Assembly (NCBI RefSeq): GCF_949628265.1
Contig: NC_088789.1
Location: 27,583,883 to 27,647,882 of the forward strand
Length of the DNA: 64,000 bases
Direction of reading: 5' to 3'
Source: Cloeon dipterum
Taxonomy: Eukaryota; Arthropoda; Insecta; Ephemeroptera; Baetidae
The notes under the pieces are model-generated. The model worked only from the letters and a program-made list of their open reading frames with translations. It was not told where the DNA came from and did no database searches. Both the position numbers and the translations under genes were made by a program. This document shows positions 18,640 through 50,665 of this stretch, one piece after another. Numbering within the stretch: position 1 is the stretch's first letter; every line of letters begins with the position of its first letter.

Positions 18640-21600
18640 TTTTTGACATTATTTTAAGGTTTTAACATAAGAGTAAACAAACCGTAACGGTGAAAAATTG
18701 TTACAGAGTGGAAATAATATGAAAATTCATCACAAGCTGTGGGTACCACGGCAATGTTTACTAGTTGACCGTGACCTGCCCACGCCCACATTCGTCTCAC
18801 AGGGATGCCAATCCATCTGTATTAACAAAACAAGTTCTGATTGGTGTGAGTTGGGTTTTCGTTAACTTGGGCATTGTATTTGAGTTAAATTTAACACCAA
18901 AGAGGCATCTTTTACTATCGAAGCCGTGGTTGGTAGTTGAAGAGTCAAAATTTAATACAACAATTCGAGATTAAGCCCGGACAGTCCGTAATTTCAACTC
19001 AGCCCTTACCCATTAAATTTGGTTTATTTTCTTTAAATTAAAAATGCGTAGTTGATGTGTTTAATATACTTAAATTATATAATATAAATGCTTATATTTT
19101 AAGGGAGTCAAAGACTGGACATGAAAATAATCTCAGAATCAAAACGGTGAATTTCGAACACGGATTCGAATATTCTCGCCGAGCAAAAAAGAAAAATGAA
19201 AAAATGAAAGGCAATAAACTGAATTCGGAACAAGATTGAGCTTTAAAAAGATGATAAATAAATCAACTAACATTTTCGTTATACTTGAATTAACCTTGTG
19301 AATCACCAAGAAATAGAGAATTTGAGTAAAGAACATACTTCGGAAAACTTAAACGAAGCTAGCTTATATGGTCACATAATATGAGCTTCAAACGCAATTT
19401 GGCATCCCGCCGAAATGATTCTGGAACACAGGGCGACACTTCTTCCTGCAGCGATCAACTCACACACTGCTGATGTTTATGATAAAACGTGGTATTTTAT
19501 TTCACTCATATAGCTTCTTTTGAACCTTTCCTATGTGATGAGTTAAAGTTGGAAAAATTAGGTACATCTTAGATTAAATCACCTGCTGATTTTTTGCTGC
19601 ACTAGATCTGTCACAGTGACCAAACATCAAAAGGCTGCTGATTAAAAATTGAAGATGAGATTTGACCAGAAGGGAAGGCAACAGCTTGGTCCCCGGCTAA
19701 GCTTCGAAGATGAGAGAGGAGTATATAATCAGTAATTCAAATAAGAAATTAATTTTTTGAAATAATGCTGTGTGGCAGGCTTTAAGAATAAAGATGGCCC
19801 GGTGCAGACCATGGATGCTCACCCCTTTACGACTGCATCCTACCCTGAAAAAAAAGACTTGAAGTTGGTCCGAGAATACACATGACAAAGGTTCACTTTT
19901 TCATTACTCTGCTATATGTAGGGTGCATTAATAATGTCTACTAGGTGGCTAAATTTCCTTCAGATGCATGGTGGACAAAATGCTTGAGGGATGTAAATAC
20001 CAAAAACTAGCCTAAAGCACAAACAACTTTACTTTGAAAATTGGTTCAAGATGTGGATTGATACTGCAAAACCCTAAATAAAATGCTTGGTGCCAAAACA
20101 TATTATTATTTATTTTATTTATTTATTATTATTTATTTTGAGAAAACTGTCTGCAAAGTTAGCAAGCTTGCCAACTTTAACTTGCAGTAAAGAGTGTCTC
20201 GATACTGGACACCTGATTCTGTTTCAAAACAATGAGTCTACCAAAAGACTGTCATGCACTGTTGAATAGATCCTGCTGAGAGGAATCGAAATCTGCAAAG
20301 AAAATGTGGCCAAGCATTAAATTTTGGAAAAAAATTGAATTTTTACTGTAGCACTAGATTGCTCAAAATTATAGAGCAAACTTTTTATCGATTAACTGCT
20401 TTTTGCAACAAAATTTTCATTCGTCGTCTTGTATCGATCCACTTTAAAAATCCCTATGAGATTGGAGTATGAATGTATGACATTAAAACTGAGAATGTTT
20501 GGAGTGCATTGTCTATGTATGATTGTGTATGTATGTATGTGCAAATGTAGTGGTTTGAAATGCACAATAAACGGCTTTTCCTCACCTTGTTATGATTATT
20601 GTTTCAATATTTTATGTGTATCATCGCTGACGGGCTTCTTTTCCTTGCTTGACTCTTGGCTTCTTTCTTCATTCACGACTGTAGTGGCGGGGATGTAAAC
20701 AATGCCGACTCAATTATTACTGGTCGATCAGCTGGTTCCGGTATCAAAATACTAAAACAAAGAGGAGACGGAACTGGACGGAACTTGCTTGCCTTGGCTT
20801 AATCAGTCTGAATTATTTAAATGTGTCCTATTTTGCAAAACCTTAGAGGTGTATTGCGTACCCCACTAACTTACTTGTCAAGGGAAAATCCAAATGGTAA
20901 ATAGAATAATTAAGTTTTGGATCTAATTGCTTGACAAGGGGCAGCTGATTGTTTGTTCGAATGTATTAATTTTTCCCGTGACTTTCCTCGGTTGTTTGTT
21001 CACACGAAAACATGATTTTTCTTGCGGATTTTGAATTAATTTTAAAAGATAAATCCAAAAAGTAGTAACTATTTCTCACACGATAATTAATTACCTTTGA
21101 ACTTTGATTTGATGCAACGATGAAAATTTATTTGTTGTTGACCCGATTTAACATTTAAAAATTACTTCATCCAAATAAGATTTTTTAAACTTGAATATTC
21201 ATAATCTGAATTGAGAGCTTAAAAATCCATTGTGGTAGTGTGGGAAGAAACAGTGTCAAATTCACATTTTTCCTTCTATCCAAAAATTTTTAAATATTAA
21301 TTTTCTAAAATATGGGAAGTTGTATCAAATGAGTAGATTGTTAAATACGTTTTAACAACTTAATTTTTATTATCATCAGTCTTATAATATTTTCATAAAG
21401 TTTATTCACATTTTAAAAATATACAAGTTATATTACACAAATTTAAAAATCACTGTTCAGAAAAAGTCAATTGTATTATTACACAAATCGAAAACCAGGT
21501 TTCAACATCCCTAACCTGTTAATTATTGTCCATTTCTTCATGTTCTAACGAGTCTTTTTCTCTAATTATAGTTTCTATGCATCACAAAACAAAATGGAAG

Positions 21601-21743
21601 CGCATGGACATCGAACTGACACGTCGCACTAAAAAATCCTGAACACGGCTCAAATAGATCCTCTGGCAAAGAGCTGCTGCAGCAAGTGGTATTTTAATAT
21701 TTTATTTAACCATCGCCAAATTGCACTAAATGCTCTACTCGTC
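18640..21743. other. Intergenic part of duplication copy A
   Basis: Upstream of golgin-45. Includes a repeat block at about 19600-20400 that occurs once here and twice in copy B (about 26180-26960 and 26980-27800). It contains a diverged family A MITE (about 20055-20450, ends TTGATACTGC and GTATCGATCCACTTTAAA). No protein-coding exon is convincing. Confidence 0.55.
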
Positions 21744-22178
21744 TTATTTCGAGAAGTCCGTGATGATGTCGTCAGCGTCGGGTGTCCTGCATTCCTCCTG
21801 CTGACGCTTCTGTTCGGCCAAGACGTTCTGGGATTTGACAAAAAACGGCCAGCCGCATCCGAATTTGACCTCCCAATCTAACCAATCATCGTAGTACTGA
21901 TCTGTCGACATCGGCTCTTCCGACTCCTCGCTTGCGCTGCTCTCGTCCTCAGATGATGGCGAGAAATCCGAGAAATCGTACATTGGACTTGGCGTTGAGC
22001 AGTTTCTTATTCCTGCCATAAAATCCAGTCGAGTCGGAAGATGCTCCTCTGCATCATAATCATCGTATGACGAAAGCCAAATAGTTGTTTGATCTGGAAT
22101 ATCGTCGTAGTGAATTGATTCAATCGAATCATGCAACGTAATAGTTGGCACGGCATCCATCTTGAAATTTGAAGTCAA
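21744..22178 (-). CDS. Small acidic protein of unknown family (copy A paralogue)
   Basis: An uninterrupted 144-codon frame starting MTSNFKMDAVPTITLHDS. Strongly acidic, Ser/Asp/Glu-rich in the middle (SSEDESSASEESEEP). No signal peptide or membrane segment. It carries the motif TIWLSSYDDYDAEEHLP, which resembles motifs in the protein at 29231-29704 (ISLYLSSNDADEE and others). At the nucleotide level the two genes differ much more than their flanks, while the motif stays similar, which suggests real coding. I do not recognise the family. It could be single-exon or the visible exon of a longer gene. Confidence 0.5.
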   Translation of the reverse strand: MTSNFKMDAVPTITLHDSIESIHYDDIPDQTTIWLSSYDDYDAEEHLPTRLDFMAGIRNCSTPSPMYDFSDFSPSSEDESSASEESEEPMSTDQYYDDWLDWEVKFGCGWPFFVKSQNVLAEQKRQQEECRTPDADDIITDFSK

Positions 22179-22354
22179 TAGAAGCGAGGAAGGGTCGATG
22201 TGCTATGATCGAACGCAAATTTTACACTGATATATACTCTTCCGGAGATGCGCTAGCTCCAGTAGACACCAACGCGACATCTTTCGGAAAAAAATGTCAT
22301 CCCTGTCAATATTTAAAGTATCATAACTAATTGGCCAGAGTGAAAGCCCGGGAA

Positions 22355-25206: not shown

Positions 25207-28200
25207 TTTTTGATATTATTTGAAGGTTTCAACAAAAGAGAAAACTAACCGTAACGGTGAAAAATAGTTACAGAGTGGAAATAATATGAAAATTCATCAC
25301 AAGCTGTGGGTACCACGGCAATGTTTACTAGTTGACCGTGCCCTGCCCACATTCGTCTCACAGGGATGCCAATCCATCTGTATTAACAAAACAAGATCTG
25401 TTTGGCGTGAGTTCGGAACTTTGAACTGAGCATCCTATTTGAGTTAAATTTAACACCAAATAGACATCTTTTACTATCAAAGCCGTGGCTGGTAGTTAAA
25501 GAGTCAAAATTTTGATACAGCGATGCGAGATTAAGTCCGTAATTTCAACTAAGCTGCTATACCCATTAAATTTGGTTTAAATCAAACACGTGTGGTTGAT
25601 GCTTTAATAAACTAAAACCATACATGGTTTCATTAAACTAAAACCATACATGGTTTTAGTTTAAGGGGAACTATCGGCTGAATATAAAAGTAATCTCAGA
25701 ATAAAAACGGAGAACTTCGAACAAGGATTCGAATATTTTTGCTCGCAGAGCAAACAAATCATAAATGGAAGACAATAAAATGAATTCGGAACAAGAACTT
25801 CAATAAGATGATAAAGAAATCAACTGACATTTTCTTGAATTAACCTTGTGAATCACCAAGAAATAGAGAATTTAAGCAAAGAACATACTTCGGACAACTT
25901 AACCGAAGCTTGCAGAAATTAGCACCTTCCGAAAGCCATTTCGCAGAAGAATTTTGATAGGAGAATTTCCCGCGTTAAAAATTTAATTGTTTGATTATGG
26001 CTCAAAGCGAATCAGAACCAGTATACTCTCCTTGCAAGGGAATCAGATGTAAGAGCTAAGAGCGTCCTAGTATGCACGTGTCAACTGTCGGCCTTGAACT
26101 CTTTCATCCATAAATTTGGCAATTAAACCCTGTGTGATGGAAAAGGTTGGAAAAATTATGTAGATCTAAGATTAAATCACCTACTGGTTTTTTGTACTAG
26201 TTTCTAGGGGCCTCTGTAGGTCCTGTAACTGCCGGATTAAAAATTTGGAAATGTTGTCTTTTACGGAGTGGCCACACGAGTACAAGACGATCGTTGAAGA
26301 GTTTTGATACTGCCAGTTAAGGAAAGGAACAGACAAGGTCCACAGCTTTTCTTCGAGGATGATACAGGAGTATAATGAGTTATTAAAATAAATATTAATT
26401 TTTTGAAATTTCTATGTGGCAGAGGTTACAAGATTTAAGATGGTGCTGACTATCAATGGCCACCTCTTCCAACTCTGCCCTGAAAACAAACACCTGATGC
26501 TGGTTCGAGAAAACATAGCTAAGGTTCACTCTTTTATAATATATTGTTCTGCTATATGTAGGGTGCATTAATGCTGTCTACCAGGTGGCTAAAATTCCTT
26601 CAGATGTATGGTGGACATGACAGTTGAGGGATGATAACTATATAGCCTAAAGCATGAACACCTTTACTTTGAAAATTGGCTCAAGATGTGGATTGGTACT
26701 GCGAAACACTAAAGAAAATGCTTGGTGCCAAAACATAAGCTCATCATTAAGGATTCAGTTGAAGCCAAAATTGTAATTTTTTTAGAAAAGTGGCTGCAAA
26801 GTTAGCATGCATACAGTAAAGAGTGTTTCGCTCTTGGACACCTGATTATATTTCAAAACAATGAGCCTCCCTAAATAATGTCATGCACTGTTGAATAGAT
26901 CCTGCTGAGAGAAATCAACATCTGCAAAGAAAATGTGGCCAAGCATTAAATTTTGGAAAAAAAATTGGATTTTTACTGTAGCACTAGATCTGTCACAGTG
27001 ACCAAACATCAAGAGGCTGCTGATTAAAAATTGAAGATGAGAGTTGACCAGAAGAAAAGGCAACGGCTTGGTCCCCGGCTTAGCTTCGAAGAAGAGAGAG
27101 GAGTATATTATCAGTAAATGAAATAAAAATTAATTTTTTTGAAATAATAATGCTGTGTGGAAGGCTTTAAGAATAAAGATGACCAGGTGCAGACCATTGA
27201 TGCTCACCCCTTTACGACTGCATCCTACCCTGAAAAAAAAGACTTGAAGTTGGTCCGAGAATACACATGACAAAGGTTCACTTTTTCATTACTCTGCTAT
27301 ATGTAGGGTGCATTAATAATGTCTACTAGGTGGCTAAAATTCCTTGAGGATCTATGGTGGACAAAATGCTTGAGGGATGTAAATACCAAAAACTAGCCTA
27401 AAGCACGAACAACTTTACTTTGAAAATTGGTTCAAGATGTGGATTGATACTGCGAAACCCTAAATAAAATGCTTGGTGCCAAAACATAAGCTCATCACCA
27501 AGGATTCAGTTAAAGCCACACTTGTTTTATTTTATTTATTTATTTATTTATCTTATTTTGAGAAAACTGGCTGCAAAGTTAGCAAGCTTGCAAACTTTAA
27601 CTTGCAGTAAAGAGTGTCTCGAGTCTCGATGATGGACACCTGATTATATTTCAAAACAATGAGTCTTCCTAAAGACTGTCATGCACTGTTGAATAGATCT
27701 TGTCGAGAGGAATTGAAATCTGCAAAGAAAGAATCTGCAAAGCAATAAATTTTGGAAAAAAATTGAATTTTTACTGTAGCAAGTTCCTGTTTTGATTGCT
27801 GAAAATTAAAGAGCAAACTTTTTATCGATTAACTGCTTTTTGCAACAAAATTTTATTTGTCGTTCTGTATTGATCCACCTTAAAAATCCCTATTAGATTG
27901 GAGTATGTATGTAGGTATGCATGACATTAAAACTGAGAATGTTTGGAGTGCATTGTCTATGTGTGTATGTGCAAATGTAGTAGTTTGAAGTGCACAATAA
28001 ACGGCTTTTCCTCACCTTGATATGGTTTTTGTTTCTATATTATATAATCGCTGACCGGCTTCTTTTCCTTGCTTGACTCTTGGCTTTTCCTTGCTTGACT
28101 CTTGGCTTGGAATTTTTCTCTTCATTCACGATTGCAGTGGCGGGGATGTAAACAATGCCGACTCAATTACTGGTCGATCAGCTGGTTCCGGTATCAAAAT

Positions 28201-29230
28201 ACTAAAACAAAGAGGAGACGGAACCTGGACGGAACTTGCTTGCCATGGCTTAATCAGTCTGAATTATTTAAATGTGTCCTATTATGCAAAACCTTAGAGG
28301 TGTATTGCGTACTCCACTAGCTTACTTGTCAAGGGAAAATCCAAATGGTAAATAGAATAATTAAGGTTTGGGTCTAATTGCATGACATGGAGCAGCTGAT
28401 TATATTTGTTCGAATGTATTAATTTTTCCCGTGACTTTTCTCGGTTGTTTGTTCACACGAAAACATGATTTGTCTTGCGGATTTTGAATTAATTTTAAAG
28501 AGAAATCCAAAAAGTAGTAACTCTTATTTCTCACACGATAATTAATTACCCTTGAACTTTGATTTGATGCAACGATGAAAATTTATTTGTTGTTGACCCG
28601 ATTTAACATTTAAAAATCGCTTCATCCAAATAAGATTTTTTAAACTTGAATATTCATAATCTGAATTGAGGGCTTAAAAATCCATTGTGGTAGTGTGGGA
28701 AGGAACAGTGACAAATTCACATTTTTCCTTTTATCCAAAATTTTTAAATATTAATTTTCTAAAATATGGGAAGTTGTATCAAACGAGTAGATTGTTAAAT
28801 ACGTTTTAACAACTTAATTTTTATTATCATCAGTCTTATAAAATTTTCATAAAGTCTATTCACATTTTAAAAATATACAAGTTATATACACAAATTTAAA
28901 AATCACTTTTCAGAAAAAGTCAATTGTATTATTACACAAATTGAAAACCAGGTTTCAACATCCCGAACCTGTTAATGATTGTCCAATTCTTCATGTTCTA
29001 ATGAGTCTTTTTCTCTAATTTTAGTCTCTATGCATCACAAAACAAGATGGAAGCGCATGGACATCGAACTGACACGTCGCACTAAAAAATCCTGGACATG
29101 CCTAAGAGGCAAAGAGTGCCACACCTCAGCGTGGTATTTTTATCTTTACATTACCATGGCCATTGTACTATTTGCTCTCTTTATCTTCCGAGAAGCCTGT
29201 GATGATCCGGCATCGTCCGGAGCGTCGTCT
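25207..29230. other. Intergenic part of duplication copy B
   Basis: AT-rich, repeat-bearing DNA equivalent to 18640-21743. Includes diverged family A MITE pieces at about 26691-26960 and 27447-27890. A plus-strand frame at about 29031-29296 with a hydrophobic stretch (YITMAIVLFALFIF) overlaps the acidic gene; the copy A counterpart has a stop after RRTKKS, so I do not call it a gene. Confidence 0.5.
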
Positions 29231-29704
29231 TCAGGGCAAAATGGCTACCCCGAACATCTCATCGGTTTCTCCAATACCTTCGTCTTCCGAAACTGACATG
29301 GCGTCCGCGTCGTCCCCATCATGAGACGAAAGGTACCAAGATGTCCTGTCCGAGGCGTCGAATAATGATGATTTTGCGTCCGAGTGGTACCCTGACGAAA
29401 CGTCGTGGAAGGAAACCGACGCTTCGGATTCGGGCAAACGACGTTCCTCATCCGCAATACCATTATCATCATTGAGCCATAATGCTATTCGTGCAAAGAC
29501 GCTCAACGGCTCGGGGATGTACAACAATGGGTTAACGTCCATCAGATTAGCTGAAGGAGCGTCGACCAACTCTTCGTCCGCATCGTTGGACGAAAGATAT
29601 AATGATATCTTATCACAGAAGTCCAACGATGGGTCCATTACAAATTCCGTTGAGTCCAATGAAATGGTCGAGGACATAATGCTGATGGCGTCCATCTTGC
29701 TCAA
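29231..29704 (-). CDS. Small acidic protein of unknown family (copy B paralogue), with internal repeats
   Basis: An uninterrupted 157-codon frame starting MSKMDAISIMSSTISL. Three internal units share a pattern: ISLYLSSNDADEELVDAP, IALWLNDDNGIADEERRLP and TSWYLSSHDGDDADAMSV. The same pattern occurs once in the copy A protein (TIWLSSYDDYDAEEHLP). Very acidic; no signal peptide or membrane span. Function unknown. Antisense frames are also open, so the strand choice rests on the shared motif and the duplicated arrangement. Confidence 0.5.
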   Translation of the reverse strand: MSKMDAISIMSSTISLDSTEFVMDPSLDFCDKISLYLSSNDADEELVDAPSANLMDVNPLLYIPEPLSVFARIALWLNDDNGIADEERRLPESEASVSFHDVSSGYHSDAKSSLFDASDRTSWYLSSHDGDDADAMSVSEDEGIGETDEMFGVAILP

Positions 29705-29743
29705 GTGTATAAAGAAGAATGAGCGTTCGGCGTCGTGCTCAGG

Positions 29744-29820
29744 TTCGGTGCTCGGAAAGGTTCGGTGCTCGGAAAGGTTCGGTGCTCGGAAAGGTTCGGT
29801 GCTCGGAAAGGTTCGGAAGC
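29744..29820. repeat. 17 bp tandem repeat
   Basis: About 4.5 near-perfect copies of GGTTCGGTGCTCGGAAA, just upstream of the start of the 29231-29704 acidic gene. The near-identity of the copies suggests recent expansion. Confidence 0.9.
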
Positions 29821-30163
29821 TGCGACATGTAGTGTCGGGAAAACCCCTTGCGAAGCTACAAGCTATAGGAGGTCTTGTTGAATTTATGTTAAAGAAGTGT
29901 TTTCGCCCGAGGGATCTTGAAATATATTGATATGACCTTTATTTGTAAATACGTGAAAATGGTACTTAAACATGGCACAAAGGAGAAAAAGATGGCTAGT
30001 AAAAAGCCACGATGGGACAGAAGCATAGCCTGCGCGAGTCTTTTTTGCTCAAATTTTGAGCTAGCCGCAGCCGTCAGTTTTTGCGAGCCGTGCCAGCTAC
30101 GTACGCGAGCCAAGCCTACTGGGCACTATTTTAAAAACTGCGACTAATATTGCAAAAATGCCG

Positions 30164-30754
30164 CTATGTGAATAATTTTGCAAATCGCTTCATCAAAATG
30201 GTTGCTAATTTCCATGAAATTCCTGGGCAGAAATCAAACTTTTCCAGCATCCTTCTTAACGTTTGGGGGGAAGGGATTGCAAAAAATTTTTCAAGGCATC
30301 TGTAGTTCCTTCTTCCAGATTTGTACAGGCCGATGCAGATCATTTTTAACTTAAGCGAGTATCGTCGCCCTCTTGCCTCTTTTGCACCCTCTGTCAGCTG
30401 GTTATGAAAAATTTCATAACATTTGCCCTTGACAACCTTTCTCAAAAACAAAAGCAGGTTTGGGATTTCCTGCTTGTTAGCTTTGCCAAGTTGTTTGATT
30501 CGATGCTTAAGCCGGTTGACTGTTTTTTGTTTTTCCTCCAGTTTCCTAATTAAAAGTCTCTTCCTGGGGGTCAGCATCTTCTTCGAATATGCTCCAATTT
30601 CTACACAAATCCGTGATCTGGTTTTTCTGATGTTTTTTTTGTCTGCATTGTTATGCTCAATGATCTTCTTGGCTGCAGCTTGGATTTGCACCGGAGTCCT
30701 TACAACCAGAGCCTGCCTCTCTTTGGTCTTATCAATCTGCGCATTCATGCCATC
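30164..30754 (-). mobile_element. P-element-type transposase N-terminal segment (coiled coil + HTH)
   Basis: Preceded by an acceptor (CAAATAG/GATGGC). 194 codons from the first Met. The first half is basic and heptad-like (RLLIRKLEEKQKTVNRLKHR); the second has RRYSLKLKMICIGLYKSGRR, NYRCLEKFF and IPSPQTLRRML, as in P-element and THAP9 transposases between the zipper and the nuclease. No Asp/Glu catalytic domain follows, so by itself it is not an active transposase. The phase fits splicing from the exon at 31029-31139. Confidence 0.75.
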
Positions 30755-33700
30755 CTATTTGAGAAACATAAATTCTTATGGTTTTGACTGTATTTGAGAC
30801 AGTAATATATTTGTCTTTGCAAGCTATAAAAGCTACAAGGATAATTTTAATTTTTGCAACTTGCATCTTGAATTGAAAATCTTTAATGCACTGACAACGG
30901 TATTTGACTAATATTTTTCATACTTGCTCCATTCAGTGCCAAATTTGAAAAAATCTAAAAGCCAGTGATATTTTAAATTGGATTAAAATATTGTGTGTAA
31001 TTACTTTATTTATTCTAACTGGTTACACTAAATCTTCCTCTTGAATATGCTTTTCAGGCGTCCGCAGATCAGGATATTCTATCTCAAGGTCGACGTCACA
31101 TTCCATGGGCACTTCTTCTTCAAATTTTTCATGTCCGTGCTGCAATGGGGTGAGAATTTGATTTTAAACTGATTAGCAAATTTTTATGAAACAAAAGCCT
31201 TTTACATTCAATGTTTTGTTATCTTTTCCTTTCAATGGAATTTGATCCAAAATGTTTTGTACAGGTCTCAGCCAGGAAATTGAAGGTGGCAGCCGGCGGG
31301 ACCCCCATTGCCAATTTTTTTAAGTTTGATGGTATGATTATAAGCCCGATGAATTTTTCCCTTCTGAACTATATAATTTTAACCCTTATCACAGGCTGCT
31401 GTCGGGGCTTGCGCAGCTTAACCACATTCACGATGGCTGGTGGTGGAGACCCAAAATTTGCCTGCTCACGGGGCATATAGCGAGGCTGGTTGAGACCTCT
31501 AATGCTTATTTTTTATATTTTATTTCCTTGAAAGCACAATGTAACGCTTGGTTTGTTATATTTAAACGAAAATTACATCTAACAATGGATTTAAATTACA
31601 TACCTTGATTTTAATCAATGCAATTGCAAGTAAAAGTTGATTTAACGTTTGTAAATTCCTGTCACTATGATATGTTATTACAATTGGCAAGGAGTGGTTC
31701 TATTCCCTAACCAGGCCTAGGAAAAGAAGGCAATTTTTAAACTTTGAGCAGTTTGTTTTTTGAAATTCCTCAACAAATACTATTGATATTAATCACCCCC
31801 CTAAATTAACGTTTACGTGACTTTTATTTCATATATGTCAAACAATGCATATTATAATTATTGTTTTACCAAGTCTTGTTGCTCTAGGAACAGTATTTGA
31901 CTAATACTTTTCAAACTTGCGCCATTCATTGCCAAATTGTAAAAAAAAAACTAAAAGCTATTGTTCTTTTAAACTGGATTAAATAATTGCGTATTTACGA
32001 TATTCGTTCTAACCAGTTTTACGTCATCATCCTTTTGTACACATGTTTTCCAGGTGTTCAAAGTTCCTTCTTCGTGTCAGAATCCACTTGTGAGTCTGTG
32101 TCCTGTTCATGCTGTAATGGGGCCACAGAAGTGAAAATGTGATTTTAAGCAAATTGACAATGTTGAATAAACAATATTATCCAATGGCTACTCTTTTCAT
32201 TTTATTTGGAGCCTCCCTGAGATTTTTTTCAATTGCTATTCGTTATCTCATTCAGATATCACTATTTCAATTGGTTTGATTCTCATTAAATTTATTTCGC
32301 TTTTAGAATAGTTGCCCCTTGTACATTTTATAATTCATTATTTAAGTACACAAAAATATCTTCATATGTATGATTTGATAATGACTACTTACAATTAAAT
32401 GCCTGTAAACGTTTTGTTTCGCATTAATAAAAACCATTAAAACAGAAGTTATCAGTTTGATAACATTACAAAATAATTATTATAAAGATATTGGACTACA
32501 AAGAATATAAATTATCAAGCTGCATATTATTTGTATCAGGATTACAAGGTAGGAAATAAACAAAATCTTCCATTTCAAAAAATCTATATTTCAAGCAGAT
32601 AAAAAAAGGGTAAAAATTGTCACTTTTTTTGATAACGAACTAAATAATTTGAATAAATTACAAATATTGCTTACAGCACTGTCTAAACCACAGCTTTCGT
32701 CAATTCCTTCCATGCTTGTTCCATCATTCATGGCAAGACCATTCAGCTTATTCTATTTAAAATCATTGTCACATGATGAATTTATATTAAGAATACATTT
32801 GCTTTAGTGTCAGCCTATTTAACTCATCAAATTATGGCAAAAAATATCACCTGCGAGACAAAATATCCCATGTGATCATTTTTATAACCCATCACAGCAC
32901 TTATGAGATACGTTGGTGATGGAAAATAGTTCTTGTTCTTGTACAGCATCAAGCACACTCCACTCTCATAGTCTTGAACATCACATATTTCACTGACCTG
33001 AAAAAAAGATTAAAGAAAATATCTAGCGATTTTCAAACTGCTTACAATACTGTCATTATATTTAATGAAAGATGGTCCATCTCGCTCAAGGTAAATATAA
33101 TGTCCAGTGCTGGCCTTCCCTCCAATATGGACGATCATGCCATTCAGTTCATAAGTGTGTGATTGATCCACACTTTTAATAGTAAGCTTCGATACGGTTT
33201 TCATCTTTGACGTGTCTTTGGTAAGTCCTTGAGGTCCATAACTAACACTGGAAATTGATTAAAATTTGGAAAATAAATTTAAATAGAATACAAACATCTT
33301 ACAGGTCAATCTCTACAATCATGTTTTCAGGGAGGGTGTCAAATTTTTTTGTGGTCTTGAAGGACTGAATATTTCGGCATCTGGGAAAAACTTCTCTCAC
33401 TTCTTCCCATCCGTGTAACCACTGATCTAACCCGCTAACAACATCTTGTGTACATGGAATGTACACAATTGGAGTATAGTTGATTTAATTGGGTTAACAG
33501 ACTTGTAATTGCAAGCAGAACAACATCCTACAAAATATAATAGAGTAAGGCCAATTATTGAATTTATAGATGAGCAACATACGCTTCAGCTCATAGCTCA
33601 ATGTCAAGCTGTTGACTCCCGCAATAATTTTTCTGCACTTTGGCCTCTCCTACAACTCGGAAACAACTTTGAGAATCACGTCGATTGGATCTCCTTCTTC

Positions 33701-35176
33701 TCCTGAGTTGAAACCACATTTGCCTAAACACATATGTATATTAGCAATCTATTGTATTGTTTCCCTGAAAAAAATCCGCATACCAGAAACAAAGTCAATC
33801 ATTACTTGGCATCCCTGTAAGGAGATTGTTGAATGTGTTTTGCAGGACACATTCACAGCAATCTACCGATAATTTATTAAGTACAATTCTTTAAGAAAAT
33901 ATTTATCAATACCTGACATTGATTCATTACAAACATGGGTGATAACAGCTTCTAAGAATCGATCCAATGAGAAGAGCAACTGGATGCTTGAGTTTACAAA
34001 GCATGTTTTACCAATATTAATCAATCCATGCCGATTTACACGTTCAATGGCTTTTTCGACGTGTTCAGTCTGGAAGTAAAGGAAGTTACGTTTAAGTTAT
34101 TCAATATCACAAAAATCTAACCTCAGTTGTAAAGAATGAAAAGTTTTCAATTTTGAAACTTCCTCTGTCCTCTGCCTCAGTCAAACCAGCCAGCTGACTA
34201 TCCTCACATCTATCGTCCTGATGAAAGATATCTATTATTTATATTTACAGACATTCAATGATAAATCACTAAATATTGTGCACAAATCTTGTGGTCTGCT
34301 GGGACAGCATGCTCATTCAACTTAACAACTTTATTTGTCACGTTGAACATGCATCTCATAAAATGCAGGCTGCATACTCTCATGCTTGCTGGTACAGTTG
34401 TTGCTGTCATGCCGTAAACCCCCATCCTTTCTAAAAAACCTCTGTCCTGGAAACTCAAAACAATAAATCTCAGCCACAATACAAAAGCAATCAAGTAGAA
34501 ACAAACCAAACCAAGCAAAGGATAGATTTAATGTTATTGTCAAGCAAATCAGTAAGCCATAACCATAATGCATATATCTAGGTCTTAAAGCTTAAAGCAC
34601 ACCATTCCATACTCAGGCAAGCTCTATTACTATTTCATACTCATTATATTTTGTTGAAGATCGATGTGACGCTCATGATATCAATATCTGCAATATTTTT
34701 GGACGAGTTACAATCTGATAACTAAACTCTAACGTTTTTTACTTTATCCTTAATAAATAGCTTAGATAATTGAAACCCCTTAACAAAATTAACGATTTTT
34801 GACATGAAAAGGAACACAATACCTCTCCCATTGCCCCTTTTTCTGGGGGATTCTGAAAAAGAAGGTAGACTCTATTTGACCTTCCACGCTTTGGCACAGA
34901 TTATATTTGCATTTGCTCCTGGCCGTCTTGCGCACTTCGCCAGCGGTTCCGGGGAGCTGGGCGACAGCGGCGCCGTTTCTGCCTCTTTCGGGACTGGCTG
35001 GCGTTGCCGACGTAGGTCCTGCCGTCGATGAAAGAGACGGTTACTGAATGGAGAACGTACTCAGGGGCAAGCGCAATGTTCTCACCATTGATCAGCCTCG
35101 CTGGAGGCTCCAAGCTCAGGGCGGCACAGGTGCCAGGAACTGCAGCCTTCGGAGCTGGCTCAGTTGAGCGACTCAT
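30164..35176 (-). CDS. THAP-USP-P-element-HTH composite protein (domesticated transposase or novel deubiquitinase), model tentative
   Basis: Likely minus-strand exons: 35086-35176, 34823-35018, 34270-34441, 34122-34217, 33913-34069, ~33786-33862, 33654-33723, 33583-33632, 33303-33527, 33046-33247, 32851-32997, 32675-32752, 31029-31139, 30164-30754. Domains in order: a THAP zinc finger (CKYNLC, FFFRIP, W, then VCSLHF and AVP; C-x4-C-x46-C-x2-H); USP Cys box GLINIGKTCFVNSSIQLLFS; CSAC zinc motif; USP His box with GHYIYL and KYNDSIV; acidic linker; coiled coil; P-element helix-turn-helix (GRRYSLKLKMICIGLY, IPSPQTLRRML). The protein stops just where the P-type RNase H nuclease should begin. Two joins (33913/33862 and near 33475) do not keep frame in my model, so the gene may be decaying or my splicing is wrong. 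It is divergent from d4. Confidence 0.6.
31211..31490. other. Unresolved exon-like stretch
   Basis: Plus strand: an acceptor (TTTTGTACAG, 31265) then VSARKLKVAAGGTPIANFFK and later TTFTMAGGGDPKFACSRGI with a stop. Minus strand: REQANFGSPPPAIVNVVKLR. Base composition is coding-like compared with its neighbours, but I cannot decide strand or family. It may be another exon of the THAP-USP gene or an unrelated remnant. Confidence 0.25.
32058..32111 (-). CDS. Alternative terminal exon of the THAP-USP gene
   Basis: The acceptor CCCCATTACAG is followed in phase 0 by HEQDTDSQVDSDTKKEL and a stop. It is a tandem relative of the exon at 31029-31139: the flanking ~250 bp of both (about 30890-31150 and 31880-32130) are alignable, including the CCCCATTrCAG acceptor and the TAAACTGGATTAAAwAATTG downstream side. 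Both follow the 32675-32752 exon in the same phase, so they could give two different C-termini. Confidence 0.5.
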   Translation of the reverse strand, partial: HEQDTDSQVDSDTKKEL

Positions 35177-35905
35177 TGTTTCGGTTTGCGGTGGTGTGTG
35201 CTCTGTGGGTCGCTTTGATCCTTTGTGCTGAGGGCGCTCTGGCTGATAGTCACTAGAAACAAAATTCATTACTAAGGACCGGAAAATTACTCTTATCATT
35301 TTCACTCATGTTATATTATTCACTTATGAATTTGGGCACTCAAATCCCCGTATCATATATATACTCGGAAAATAGCAACACGATATATACAAGACAGAGA
35401 CGCTTTCAATTACGTACTGATACCAGCAGAAATTTCGGGATTAAATCCCAAGAGTTGCATGATATGTACAATAGGGTGGCGACAGAGTGGAAAATTAGAA
35501 ATCAACAGGACGCAGAACGCGATCTGACGACTTAAACTGACTGAAATACACCTCTCTCACCTCTTATTATTACTGTCAGCTCTGTATGGTTCTCTCTGGA
35601 TTATTGCAGCGGTGATTCAAGGGTTAAATAATGGTCCACAATAGCGACAAACGCAAAAGCGCGAGTGAATAAACACACTGATGGAAGTGAAGAAGGGCGT
35701 GTGCGGAGTTTCGTGGGCGTAACAGGGGCGTAACAGGCAACAAACTCCGAGACGGCCTCTGATTGGCTGAAAAAGCTATCGACCTGCCACCTGCCAGTTG
35801 ATACCACTTCTTCTGTTTACAACGCTCAAACGCTGCGGCTGCGGTAGAAGAGGAGAAGAGAAAATCGATGAGAACTTGAGGCTTGAGGAGCGAGGCGTTT
35901 CAAAC
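35177..35905. promoter_or_regulatory. Divergent promoter region between THAP-USP gene and d4
   Basis: The two genes point away from each other, with about 730 bp between proposed start codons. A possible extra 5' exon boundary for the THAP-USP gene lies near 35252 (TTTCTAG acceptor on the minus strand). No TATA box stands out; the part near d4 (35820-35900) is less AT-rich and typical of housekeeping promoters. Confidence 0.4.
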
Positions 35906-45186: not shown

Positions 45187-47892
45187 CGGGGGGGGGGGGG
45201 GCGAAAAGCATAACGTGGAGGGCGTTACGCATAACGGGGAGGGCGTTACGCGTCTCGCGTAACGGGTAGGGCGTTACGCATAACGGGGAGGGCGTTACGC
45301 ATAACGGGGAGGGCGTTACGCGTCTAGCGTAACGGGAAGGGCGTTACGCATAACGGGGAGGGCGTTACGCGTCTCGCGTAACGGGTAGGGCGTTACGCAT
45401 AACGGGGAGGGCGTTACGTTACTCGCGTAACGGCTAGGGCGTTACGCATAACGGGGAGGGCGTTACGCGTCTCGCGTAACGGGTAGGGCGTTACGCATAA
45501 CGGGGAGGGCGTAACGTTACTCGCGTAACGGCTAGGGCGTTACGCATAACGGGGAGGGCGTTACGCGTCTCGCGTAACGGGTAGGGCGTTACGCATAACG
45601 GGGAGGGCGTAACGTTACTCGCGTAACGGCTAGGGCGTTACGCATAACGGGGAGGGCGTTACGCGTCTCGCGTAACGGGTAGGGCGTTACGCATAACGGG
45701 GAGGGCGTTACGTTACTCGCGTAACGGCTAGGGCGTTACGCATAACGGGGAGGGCGTTACGCGTCTCGCGTAACGGGTAGGGCGTTACGCATAACGGGGA
45801 GGGCGTAACGTTACTCGCGTAACGGCTAGGGCGTTACGCATAACGGGGAGGGCGTTACGCGTCTCGCGTAACGGGTAGGGCGTTACGCATAACGGGGAGG
45901 GCGTAACGTTACTCGCGTAACGGCTAGGGCGTTACGCATAACGGGGAGGGCGTTACGCGTCTCGCGTAACGGGTAGGGCGTTACGCATAACGGGGAGGGC
46001 GTTACGTTACTCGCGTAACGGCTAGGGCGTTACGCATAACGGGGAGGGCGTTACGCATAACGGGGAGGGCGTTACGCGTCTCGCGTAACGGGTAGGGCGT
46101 TACGCATAACGGTAAGGGCGTTACGTCACTCGCGTAACGGGTAGGGCGTTACGCATAACGGGGAGGGCGTTACGTTACTCGCGTAACGGCTAGGGCGTTA
46201 CGCATAACGGGGAGGGCGTTACGCGTCTCGCGTAACGGGTAGGGCGTTACACATAACGGGGAGGGCGTAACGTTACTCGCGTAACGGCTAGGGCGTTGCG
46301 CATAACGGGGAGGGCGTTACGCGTCTCGCGTAACGGGTAGGGCGTTACGCATAACGGCTAGGGCGTTACGCATAACGGGCGGGAGGGCATTACGCGTCTC
46401 GCGTAACGGGTAGGGCGTTACGCATAACGGGGAGGGCGTTACGTTACTCGCGTAACGGCTAGGGCGTTACGCATAACGGGGAGGGCGTTACGCATAACGG
46501 GGAGGGCGTTACGCGTCTCGCGTAACGGGTAGGGCGTTACGCATAACGGCTAGGGCGTTACGCATAACGGGCGGGAGGGCATTACGCGTCTCGCGTAACG
46601 GGTAGGGCGTTACGCATAACGGGGAGGGCGTTACGTCACTCGCGTAACGGCTAGGGCGTTACGCATAACGGGGAGGGCGTTACGCGTCTAGCGTAACGGG
46701 AAGGGCGTTACGCATAACGGGTAGGGCGTTACGCGTCTCGCGTAACGGGTAGGGCGTTACGCATAACGGCTAGGGCGTTACGCATAACGGCTAGGGCGTT
46801 ACGCATAACGGGCGGGAGGGCATTACACGCGTCTCGCGTAACGGGTAGGGCGTTACGCATAACGGGGAGGGCGTTACGTTACTCGCGTAACGGCTAGGGC
46901 GTTACGCATAACGGGGAGGGCGTTACGCATAACGGGGAGGGCGTTACGCGTCTCGCGTAACGGGTAGGGCGTTACGCATAACGGCTAGGGCGTTACGCAT
47001 AACGGGCGGGAGGGCATTACGCGTCTCGCGTAACGGGTAGGGCGTTACGCATAACGGGGAGGGCGTTACGTTACTCGCGTAACGGCTAGGGCGTTACGCA
47101 TAACGGGGAGGGCGTTACGTTACTCGCGTAACGGCTAGGGCGTTACGCATAACGGGTAGGGCGTTACGCGTCTCGCGTAACGGGTAGGGCGTTACGCATA
47201 ACGGGGAGGGCGTTACGTTACTCGCGTAACGGCTAGGGCGTTACGCATAACGGGGAGGGCGTTACGTTACTCGCGTAACGGCTAGGGCGTTACGCATAAC
47301 GGGTAGGGCGTTACGCGTCTCGCGTAACGGGTAGGGCGTTACGCATAACGGGGAGGGCGTTACGCATAACGGGGAGGGCGTTACGCGTCTAGCGTAACGG
47401 GAAGGGCGTTACGCATAACGGGGAGGGCGTTACGTTACTCGCGTAACGGCTAGGGCGTTACGCATAACGGGTAGGGCGTTACGCGTCTCGCGTAACGGGT
47501 AGGGCGTTACGCATAACGGCTAGGGCGTTACGCATAACGGGCGGGAGGGCATTACGCGTCTCGCGTAACGGGTAGGGCGTTACGCATAACGTGGAGGGCG
47601 TTACGTTACTCGCGTAACGGCTAGGGCGTTACGCATAACGGGGAGGGCGTTACGTTACTCGCGTAACGGCTAGAGCGTTACGCATAACGGGGAGGGCGTT
47701 ACGCGTCTCGCGTAACGGGTAGGGCGTTACGCATAACGGGGAGGGCGTTACGCGTCTAGCGTAGCGGCTAGGGCGTTACGCATAACGGGGAGGGCGTTAC
47801 GTTACTCGCGTAACGGCTAGTGCGTTACGCATAACGGGGAGGGCGTTACGCGTCTCGCGTAACGGGTAGGGCGTTACGCATAACGGGGAGGG
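45187..47892. repeat. Minisatellite subfamily 1 (21/28 bp units, ~98 bp higher order)
   Basis: Alternating units: 21 bp AGGGCGTTACGCATAACGGG(G) and 28 bp units whose cores are CGTTACGCGTCTCGCGTAACG or CGTTACG...CGCGTAACG. A 21+28+21+28 order recurs as a ~98 bp higher-order repeat, clearest between 45250 and 46000. Every unit is an imperfect palindrome. Extremely CpG-rich, in contrast to the AT-rich flanks. Confidence 0.97.
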
Positions 47893-49530
47893 CGTCCTGC
47901 GGGACGGGTGGGGCGTCCCGCAGTCACGCGGGACGGGAAGAGCGTCCCGCAGGACGGCAAGGGCGTCCCGCAGGCACGCGGGACGGGTAGGGCGTCCTGC
48001 GGGACGGGTGGGGCGTACTGCAGTCACGCGGGACGGGTAGGGCGTCCTGCGGGATGGGAATGGCGTCCCGCAGTCACGCGGGACGGGAAGAGCGTCCCGC
48101 AGGACGGCAAGGGCGTCCCGCAGGCACGCGGGACGGGTAGGGCGTCCCGCAGTCACGCGCGACGGGTAGGGCGTCACGCGGGACGGGTATGGCGTCCCGC
48201 AGTCACGCGGGACGGGTAGGGCGTCCCGCAGGACGGGTATGGCGTCCCGCAGTCACGCGGGACGGGTAGGGCGTCCCGCAGGACGGCAAGGGCGTCCCGC
48301 AGGCACGCGGGACGGGTAGGGCGTCCTGCGGGACGGGTGGGGCGTCCCGCAGTCACGCGGGACGGGTAGGGCGTCCCGCAGTCACGCGGGACGGGTAGGG
48401 CGTCCCGCAGGACGGGTGGGGCGTCCCGCAGGCACGCGGGACGGGTAGGGCGTCCTGCGGGACGGGTGGGGCGTCCCGCAGTCACGCGGGACGGGTAGGG
48501 CGTCCTGCGGGATGGGAATGGCGTCCCGCAGTCACGCGGGACGGGTAGGGCGTCCCGAAGGACGGCAAGGGCGTCCCGCAGGCACGCGGGACGGGTAGGG
48601 CGTCCTGCGGGATGGGAATGGCGTCCCGCAGTCACGCGGGACGGGAAGAGCGTCCCGCAGGACGGCAAGGGCGTCCCGCAGGCACGCGGGACGGGTAGGG
48701 CGTCCTGCGGGACGGGTGGGGTGTCCCGCAGTCACGCGGGACGGGTGGGGCGTCCTGCGGGACGGGTGGGGCGTCCCGCAGTCACGCGCGACGGGTATGG
48801 CGTCACGCGGGACGGGTATGGCGTCCCGCAGTCACGCGGGACGGGTAGGGCGTCCTGCGGGACGGGTGGGGCGTCTCGCAGTCACGCGCGACGGGTATGG
48901 CGTCACGCGGGACGGGTATGGCATCCCGCAGTCACGCGGGACGGGTAGGGCGTCCCGCAGGATGGCAAGGGCGTCCCGCAGGCACGCGGGACGGGTAGGG
49001 CGTCCTGCGGGACGGGTGGGGCGTCCCGCAGTCACGCGGGACGGGTAGGGTTTCCCGCAGTCACGCGGGACGGGTAGGGCGTCCCGCAGGACGGCAAAGG
49101 CGTCCCGCAGGCACGCGGGACGGGTAGGTCGTCCTGCGGGACGGGTGGGGCGTCCCGCAGTCACGCGGGACGGGTAGGGCGTCCTGCGGGATGGGAATGG
49201 CGTCCCGCAGTCACGCGGGACGGGTAGGGCGTCCCGCAGGACGGCAAGGGCGTCCCGCAGGCACGCGGGACGGGTAGGGCGTCCTGCAGGACGGCAAGGG
49301 CGTCCCGCAGTCACGCGGGACAAGTAGGGCGTCACGCGGGACGGGTGGGCCGTCCCGCAGTCACGCGGGACGGGTAGGGCGTCCTGCGGGATGGGAATGG
49401 CGTCCCGCAGTCACGCGGGATGGGTAGGGCGTCCCGCGGGATGGGAATGGCGTCCCGCAGTCACACGGGACGGGTAGGGCGTCCCGCAGGACGGCAAGGG
49501 CGTCCCGCAGGCACGCGGGATGGGTAAGGC
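47893..49530. repeat. Minisatellite subfamily 2 (21/29 bp units)
   Basis: Begins abruptly at about 47893. Units: 21 bp AGGGCGTCCTGCGGGACGGG(T) or AGGGCGTCCCGCAGGACGGC(A), and 29 bp with core CGTCCCGCAGTCACGCGGGA(CG). Same frame, spacing and palindromic design as subfamily 1 but TTA/TAA in the arms is replaced by CCC/GGG. Long open frames here only reflect the repeat. Confidence 0.97.
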
Positions 49531-50022
49531 GTCCTGTTGGACGGGTAGGGCGTCCTGCGGGACGGGTAGGGTGTCGCGCAGGACGGGTTAGGCGTCTGCG
49601 GGACGGGTAAGGTTTCCCGTGGGACGGGTTTGGCGTCCTGTGGGACGGGTATGGTTTCCTGCGGGACGGGTAGGGCGTCGCGCAGGACGGGTAAGGCGTC
49701 GCGCGAACGGGTAAGGCGTCTGCGGGACGGGTAAGGCGTCCCGTGGGACGGGTTTGGCGTCCTGCGGGACGGGTAAGGCGTCCTGTGGGACGGGTATGGT
49801 TTCCTGCGGGACGGGTAGGGCGTCGCGCAGGACGGGTAAGGCGTCGCGCGGGACGGGTAGGGCGTCCCGTGGGATGGCTAGGGCGCCCCGCGTGATGCTT
49901 AGGGCGTCCCGCGGGACGGCTAGGGCGTTGTGCAGGACGGGTAGGGTTTCCCGCAGGACGGGTTGGGCGTCCCGCGGGACGGGTAGGGCGTAGCGCAGGA
50001 CGGCTAGGGCGTCCCGCGTGAG
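49531..50022. repeat. Degenerate edge of the minisatellite
   Basis: Mostly ~21 bp units such as AGGGCGTCGCGCAGGACGGG with more mismatches and without the regular 29 bp partners, as expected at the old edge of an array. Confidence 0.9.
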
Positions 50023-50665
50023 TAGAAATAATTAAATTTAAGCCTTGCCAAAAGAAAACTATTTTGTTCTAATACATTAAAAATAAATTGCGGTTTTGCG
50101 TTAATTGTGCATTGTGCGGTTACCGCAACTGCGGTTTTGGTCAAGACCGATGCGGTTGTGGTGCGGTTGTGGTTTTTAATTTAAAAAAATGCGGTTACCA
50201 TGGTAATGAAAATTGACACCGCACAGTGCTCTACCAGGAAACCTCCCAGTCGAATTCGAAGAGCGGATACTGCAGTCGAGTTGCACGCGTTCCCCAGAGT
50301 TTATATATATATAATATGAAGCGTGCTCCATTTGGTAATCAGAGATAATTTTATTTTTCAACAAAAAGGTCATAGTGTCCGAGATGTGCTTTGGTTCAAG
50401 TGAGAGCTGCTGTCCAGGTGTTCTCTGGGTCCACATCTCAGCATAGTTATAATAAGATAACATATAAAATTACACTGTTTTGCTTTGTCAGAACTTTTTA
50501 TCAGATGAATTTCCCTGTCAACTTTAGTGGAAAACATAGATTTGCCCGTATTATGGTGTGGCCTTCTGAACCTATCTCGAGATAAGAACAAAATGCATTT
50601 GGTTCGTAATCAAACGAGCCCTCTCCCCATTTTAAGCGAGTTAGGCAGTCAGGACAGCCGCAAAG
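50023..50665. other. Spacer and probable promoter of esterase 2
   Basis: About 50090-50205 holds repeated TGCGGTT words (including TGCGGTTACCGCAACTGCGG). TATATATATAAT near 50302 is AT-rich but about 360 bp from the ATG. No gene seen. Confidence 0.45.

Follow-up and report, generated by a model that had tools for sequence, protein, structure and literature searches.

The locus and its putative exons

We describe here a stretch of the genome of the mayfly Cloeon dipterum in which a THAP finger, a ubiquitin-specific protease (USP) and the helix-turn-helix (HTH) of a P-type transposase follow one another on a single strand. The window, by which we mean the whole 64 kb of DNA that was analysed, is C4:27583883-27647882; C2, C3 and C4 are contigs of the C. 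dipterum genome (190 Mb in 10 contigs), and coordinates given without a contig name are positions in the window. Thirteen putative exons lie on the minus strand and lead from the THAP finger through a USP with its Cys, His and Asp boxes and an acidic linker to a coiled coil and a P-type HTH. With a probability of about 0.72, we read the locus as a decayed, 3'-truncated copy of a cut-and-paste transposon of the P superfamily whose ancestral transposase was a single protein carrying the USP between its THAP finger and its HTH.

The features of the element, in its direction of reading, are as follows.

35726..35812, minus strand: inner part of the 5' terminal-inverted-repeat (TIR) arm (outer 39 bp not recognised); 88% identical over 89 bp to one arm of a miniature inverted-repeat transposable element (MITE), repeated at many places
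35086..35176, minus strand: exon 1, start codon and leader, donor gtgaga; putative, in frame with exon 2 and collinear with a relic on C2
34823..35018, minus strand: exon 2, first half of the THAP finger; Pfam THAP match of the joined halves, 46% identity over 54 amino acids to the C2 relic
34270..34441, minus strand: exon 3, second half of the THAP finger (C-x2-H, AVP); splice sites chosen by frame, donor gtgatt weak
34122..34217, minus strand: exon 4, linker to the USP; frame agrees with exons 3 and 5
33913..34069, minus strand: exon 5, USP Cys box (GLINIGKTCFVNS); Pfam UCH E 1.6e-5
33583..33723, minus strand: exon 6, middle of the USP; in-frame TAG at 33650-33652
33303..33527, minus strand: exon 7, USP CxxC and following part; frame change within the exon
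33046..33247, minus strand: exon 8, His and Asp boxes of the USP; Pfam UCH E 9.1e-11 when taken with exon 9 and the last part of exon 7
32851..32997, minus strand: exon 9, C-terminal end of the USP; protein sequence identical to that of C3:1838437-1838583
32675..32752, minus strand: exon 10, linker; open in the window and C3 copies
32023..32111, minus strand: exon 11, acidic linker, broken in the window; TGA at 32058-32060, 2-nt difference from the C3 copy
31029..31139, minus strand: exon 12, acidic linker that seems to repeat the exon 11 region in tandem; donor gtgtaa weak
30173..30754, minus strand: exon 13, coiled coil (called by eye) with a P-type HTH; 96% identity to the C3 copy, homologous to the C3 transposase reading frame up to 30173, P-type relatives align
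30164..30172, minus strand: codons beyond the truncation breakpoint to a stop; C3 homology ends at 30173
30028..30169, no strand assigned: dispersed repeat next to the 3' breakpoint; a single match extends to 30182

The chain opens with a start codon at 35176 and has GT-AG introns throughout. Its phases agree at 10 of the 12 junctions, a count that is partly a matter of choice because the acceptor and donor of exon 3 were picked to keep the frame; the two failures come after exons 7 and 11, both of which bear lesions. A preliminary description of this DNA had noted the one-strand arrangement in the order of a P transposase at 30164-35176, and the analysis bears this out as more than chance, with the element reaching past these limits as far as the upstream repeat at 35726-35812. 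Within the linker region, 67-bp pieces at 30887-30953 and 31880-31946 are 84% identical and lie 993 bp apart, as if a single exon had been duplicated in tandem to give exons 11 and 12 together with the introns that follow them. The intron between these two exons also holds a dispersed repeat (31343-31516) that has matches at many places.

The same description had pointed to a THAP finger. When the acceptor at 34441 is used, the two halves join into C-x4-C-x46-C-x2-H with FFFRIP, W and AVP and score 27.8 bits against Pfam THAP (cut-off 23.9), which gives the copy the N-terminal THAP domain of the P superfamily; an alternative junction that adds two residues raises the score to 31.1 bits. The USP claim, a Cys box, a CxxC and a His/Asp box, is likewise confirmed: on the joined THAP-USP reading, with X placed at the breaks, Pfam UCH matches two stretches at 64 bits (E 2.2e-17), and the boxes stand in the order of peptidase family C19, the Cys box GLINIGKTCFVNS being followed by the His box and then by the ND (Asp) box. 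The closest solved relatives are USP46 and USP12, at E about 4e-6. Only one CxxC is found, as against the two CxxC pairs of USP fingers; many USPs are without these pairs, and the single CxxC is therefore no bar to membership. The USP frame is interrupted by the TAG in exon 6 and the frame change in exon 7, and by the straightforward exon chain the window copy can no longer encode an intact USP. There is no support for a recent capture of a host USP, the USP end matching only itself and the C3 copy in the genome at E <= 1e-3.

At the other end of the chain, P-type transposases align to the HTH exon in a tblastn of P relatives (best E 1.8e-14), and the C3 counterpart of this exon continues into a P-type RNase H. 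These two results speak for the P-type HTH that had been noted at this position, but the exon scores below the Pfam Tnp_P_element cut-off; the coiled coil noted along with it was called by eye only.

A second copy that continues into the nuclease

When the genome was searched at the DNA level, a single further long copy came up; it occupies C3:1833457-1838648 on the minus strand. It is 96.7% identical to 30173-32367 and 94.8% identical to 32370-33062 of the window, and it starts within the last 17 nt of the exon with the USP His and Asp boxes (exon 8). Its exons 9-13 measure 147, 78, 87, 111 and 1836 nt, all multiples of three, are separated by GT-AG introns, and form a single open frame of 752 codons that passes from the C-terminal end of the USP through the linker and the HTH into the nuclease. 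A 2.3-kb insertion (C3:1835661-1837976) lies in the C3 intron between exons 10 and 11.

The nuclease of this copy matches RNaseH_N (PF21787, E 3.8e-22) and the GTP-binding insertion (PF21788, E 1e-14). Its open reading frame (ORF) aligns with the solved Drosophila P transposase 6p5a at E 2.2e-14, from residue 98 onwards, and the acids that we take to be catalytic in P transposase are aligned between the two. PF21789 was not found in the C3 copy, the portion after the last acids is missing, and the final ~60 codons of the 752-codon frame are not P-like; since the C-terminal part of the nuclease is missing, the C3 copy is also truncated. Along its full length the database protein LOC135940864 [Cloeon dipterum] agrees exactly with a portion of the C3 ORF.

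The window copy has no RNase H with GTP-binding insertion: P relatives give no match in the window past 30143. Its homology to the C3 transposase stops at 30173, beside the dispersed repeat. The chain does end where a nuclease should begin, as had been remarked before, and because the C3 copy runs on into the nuclease this end is a truncation breakpoint at 30173. The placing of a deubiquitinase between two DNA-binding parts of a transposase, which was the central idea of the preliminary description, agrees with both copies: the USP lies between THAP and HTH in the window, and C3 joins the USP end, the linkers, the HTH and the RNase H in one frame.

Terminal repeat, associated MITEs and a relic on C2

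A repeat in the 5' flank (~35680-35812) has at least 75 matches, the window's own included, many of them in adjacent pairs of opposite orientation (best 40 of 97 candidates). It belongs to MITEs of ~305 bp found at at least 41 distinct places (82 matches; best 40 of 106 candidates), with ends CAGCCCCTG...CAGGGGCTG and arms of roughly 130 bp. All 10 MITEs examined from among these places have exact 8-bp target site duplications (TSDs); nine were parsed by motif, the tenth being read directly because its end has one mismatch to the motif, and 72 of the 72 letters agree in the nine parsed TSDs, where shuffled pairings average 28. Copies reach 97% identity with the query copy, and from these sequences the MITE family appears to have been mobile rather recently. 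No intact partner element for the MITEs was found in this assembly.

In the window the MITE arm is represented, without its outer 39 bp, by 35726-35812 (88% identity); a further match, of 84%, is at C2:34245001. In eight other THAP-P loci (of the nine pairs described below) and in the C3 region no match to the MITE arm reaches E below 1, and no 3' TIR was found. For the window copy, whose TIR is one partial arm, no TSD was found. The relic at C2:34245001-34246500 carries the TIR arm, the leader and the first THAP exon in the same order as the window. Its THAP exon is 46% identical to exon 2 over 54 amino acids (E 1e-8), and the spacing from arm to THAP exon is about 744 bp at C2 and 725 bp in the window. 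The two loci are collinear between the inner edge of the arm and a point within the THAP intron, with a local score of 248 (100 shuffles: mean 45, standard deviation 7, maximum 70), and without the intron piece the score is still 123 (shuffled 41, maximum 65). The relic breaks off, by eye, inside an apparent second THAP exon, and some hundreds of bases beyond it lies a host gene that, also by eye, we presume to be Pcf11-like. TIR and THAP are therefore common to two relics, USP end and HTH are common to two copies, and the window copy has both joined.

An 8-bp TSD is that of P elements, for which the domain order is also described (PMC7776569). As 8 bp fits hAT elements too, the link of the MITEs to the P superfamily rests on the THAP relics.

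Genome, database and literature context

Profile searches of the genome gave 29 THAP, 18 RNaseH_N, one Tnp_P_element and 60 UCH hits, to which the THAP and HTH of the window were added by hand. The UCH hits fall into 28 clusters, and the window cluster is the only one within 50 kb of a P-transposase hit; since just one cluster of the 28 adjoins such a hit, chance clustering is very unlikely. There are nine other THAP-P pairs (<=20 kb apart), and in each of them both the P hit and the THAP are more than 50 kb from any UCH hit. The nearest that any other UCH cluster comes to a THAP hit is 23.8 kb, and that THAP is a lone one.

No database protein of 403-1281 amino acids matches the joined window protein at E <= 0.001 (best 7997 candidates by shared words). 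Seven of 49 database hits to the C3 transposase were rescanned and have no UCH at E <= 1e-3. Among the top-ranked papers, the open-access literature yielded no report of a USP in a P-superfamily transposase, and we found there no report for this class of element of a P-type transposase combined with a deubiquitinase between its DNA-binding parts. The earlier statement that no THAP-USP-P fusion has been described thus stands as far as this literature goes. The wider idea has forerunners: ubiquitin and SUMO proteases are known in other classes of transposase, and because a transposase_11 protein with a C19 domain is among those named, a USP in a transposase has a precedent (PMC2836005).

Weighing the alternatives

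Several observations weigh against a single ancestral protein. It is in the window copy alone that the HTH is connected to the THAP finger and to the Cys box of the USP; no intact copy was found in this genome, and protein database searches found no relative with the full architecture. UCH is present in none of the 49 hits to the C3 transposase by precomputed Pfam annotation (one of the 49 being the C3 copy's own protein), and a protein search with the USP region returned one weak USP, of 483 amino acids, at E 0.068 and with UCH only. Profile searches, which had been proposed for the spliced product of this locus, place THAP above its cut-off and match UCH, and they leave the HTH exon under the cut-off of Tnp_P_element (E 0.019). 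hAT elements likewise make 8-bp TSDs. Point differences between the C3 and window copies are as frequent in exons (23 of 1019 sites) as in introns (45 of 1842; p 0.80). Finally, an ATG close to the beginning of exon 13 could serve as a separate start, exons 3 and 12 have weak donors, the splice sites of exon 3 were fitted, and an AATAAA stands just past exon 12 in both copies; from these it follows that a gene could end after exon 12.

Such an end is what would be expected if there were two adjacent genes here, a THAP-USP gene, host or element-borne, closing at exon 11/12 and then a THAP-less P fragment, the pair having been copied to C3. The AATAAA and the ATG would both suit this arrangement, as would the database model of the C3 copy (P0001, 443 amino acids), which begins inside the HTH and excludes the USP. 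We nevertheless regard it as unlikely. The C3 exons 9-13 read through without a stop. The stretch from exon 12 to the HTH showed no THAP, and on the two-gene reading the P fragment must have lost its own while another happens to lie upstream on the same strand. The TIR-like repeat, moreover, sits upstream of the window THAP, and the other 27 UCH clusters are all more than 20 kb from THAP hits. A chance nesting of an unrelated THAP gene, a USP pseudogene and a P-element fragment, for which the repeat-rich region might be cited, appears very unlikely: the parts share one strand and the order of a P transposase, the phases agree as described (with the exon 3 sites fitted and the two failures following lesioned exons), C3 shares the stretch from USP end to HTH, and C2 shares the 5' part. 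A mere chance neighbourhood was rejected on the stretch shared with C3 and its 752-codon frame, on the counts of UCH and P clusters, and on the collinearity with C2.

It had also been suggested that the window copy was domesticated, and this is not supported. What speaks for it is an alternative chain that skips exons 6 and 11 and uses an acceptor inside exon 7: its introns are GT-AG, it is open for 660 codons encoding THAP, a shortened USP and the HTH, and it keeps the Cys, His and Asp boxes, so that an expressed remnant is possible. Indels between the C3 and window copies are also rarer in exons (one in 1019 sites) than in introns (11 in 1842; p 0.067), and the ratio of nonsynonymous to synonymous change (dN/dS) is 0.38 (8 synonymous and 12 nonsynonymous differences, p 0.044; exon 11 excluded for its gap, exon 12 taken 3 nt short of the final model). 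The indel bias and the dN/dS are weak signs of past coding constraint, and the latter could date from the active element. That the nuclease-less copy is now expressed through the alternative chain as a domesticated THAP-guided deubiquitinase or repressor strikes us as very unlikely. The alternative chain drops the USP segment with the CxxC, the internal acceptor of exon 7 is without a clear pyrimidine tract, and an acceptor of the right phase could arise by chance. The straightforward frames are broken, and the 3' end, with it the nuclease, was lost by a truncation adjoining a dispersed repeat. Exons and introns have diverged equally, no orthologue was seen in another species, and no database protein matches the window copy within a length range that covers the 660-codon product. 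The divergence pattern is consistent with fairly recent copying of a coding element, followed by decay. We would give as little credence to the more far-reaching proposal of a P lineage whose transposase, doubling as a THAP-guided deubiquitinase, edits the ubiquitin of chromatin or of repair factors where it breaks the DNA, with the mayfly copy, having lost its nuclease, still expressed by exon skipping as a sequence-specific, DNA-targeted deubiquitinase or a repressor of the MITEs.

Other features of the window

Elsewhere in the window there is a direct duplication (20750-21782 and 28200-29220; 91% identity over ~1 kb, from the edge of the query), which adjoins small minus-strand ORFs at 21744-22202 and 29231-29938; both start with MDA and by eye look related. 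The second of these contains a tandem repeat at 29724-29825 with a 17-bp unit (AGGTTCGGTGCTCGGAA). Long open frames of degenerate repeats (LRDALPVPRDCGTP..., ...RPTRPAGRP...) occupy 47797-50068, perhaps a minisatellite array. An Rfam scan of the window gave no match at gathering score.

Discussion

If the locus is indeed the remnant of a P-superfamily transposon with a built-in protease, the ancestral transposase would have had the order THAP finger, USP-type deubiquitinase, acidic linker, coiled coil, HTH, and RNase H with a GTP-binding insertion, all of the exons presumably being joined once in one mRNA. The THAP finger would have recognised DNA close to the terminal repeats, and cutting and joining, with GTP as cofactor, would have been the work of the RNase H, in the manner of P elements, for which THAP binding near the ends and GTP-dependent cutting are described (PMC7776569). 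The USP may have stripped ubiquitin at the cut site or off the transposase itself, so shielding the transposase from turnover or steering the repair of the break, a role that would be in line with what has been proposed for transposons with OTU and Ulp1 domains (PMC2836005).

Like Drosophila P, Galileo and THAP9-type elements, the mayfly element has an N-terminal THAP, a putative coiled coil and HTH and, in the C3 copy, an RNase H with its GTP-binding insertion; the MITEs associated with it have an 8-bp TSD. It differs from them in the USP of ~300 residues and the duplicated acidic linker between THAP and coiled coil, in the MITE arms of roughly 130 bp and in its many introns. With USP12, USP46 and other C19 deubiquitinases, which include its best solved-structure matches, the mayfly USP shares the Cys, His and Asp boxes in order, whereas it has one clear CxxC and the similarity is weak. 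The nearest parallels in kind are from other transposons. Ginger1, with its C-terminal OTU or Ulp1, and Mutator elements with Ulp1 are also DNA transposons that encode a ubiquitin- or SUMO-directed cysteine protease, but they belong to other transposase classes (Ginger1 being integrase-like) and use another protease family, which in Ginger1 is C-terminal; the Trichomonas vaginalis protein XP_001314237.1 (transposase_11 and Peptidase C19) also joins a USP-class protease to a transposase, but its transposase domain is pfam01609, the organism is a protist, and no THAP is named there (PMC2836005).

The ubiquitin pathway has been proposed to take part in transposition, and ubiquitin- and SUMO-directed proteases occur in several unrelated transposases (PMC2836005). 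A USP inside a P-type transposase, if true, would be an independent gain of such a protease. As the P superfamily has a solved structure and worked-out biochemistry, the proposal would become directly testable there, and the question opened is whether the protease protects the transposase or alters the repair of the break. The element would, in addition, represent a natural design in which a DNA-binding domain is fused to a deubiquitinase.

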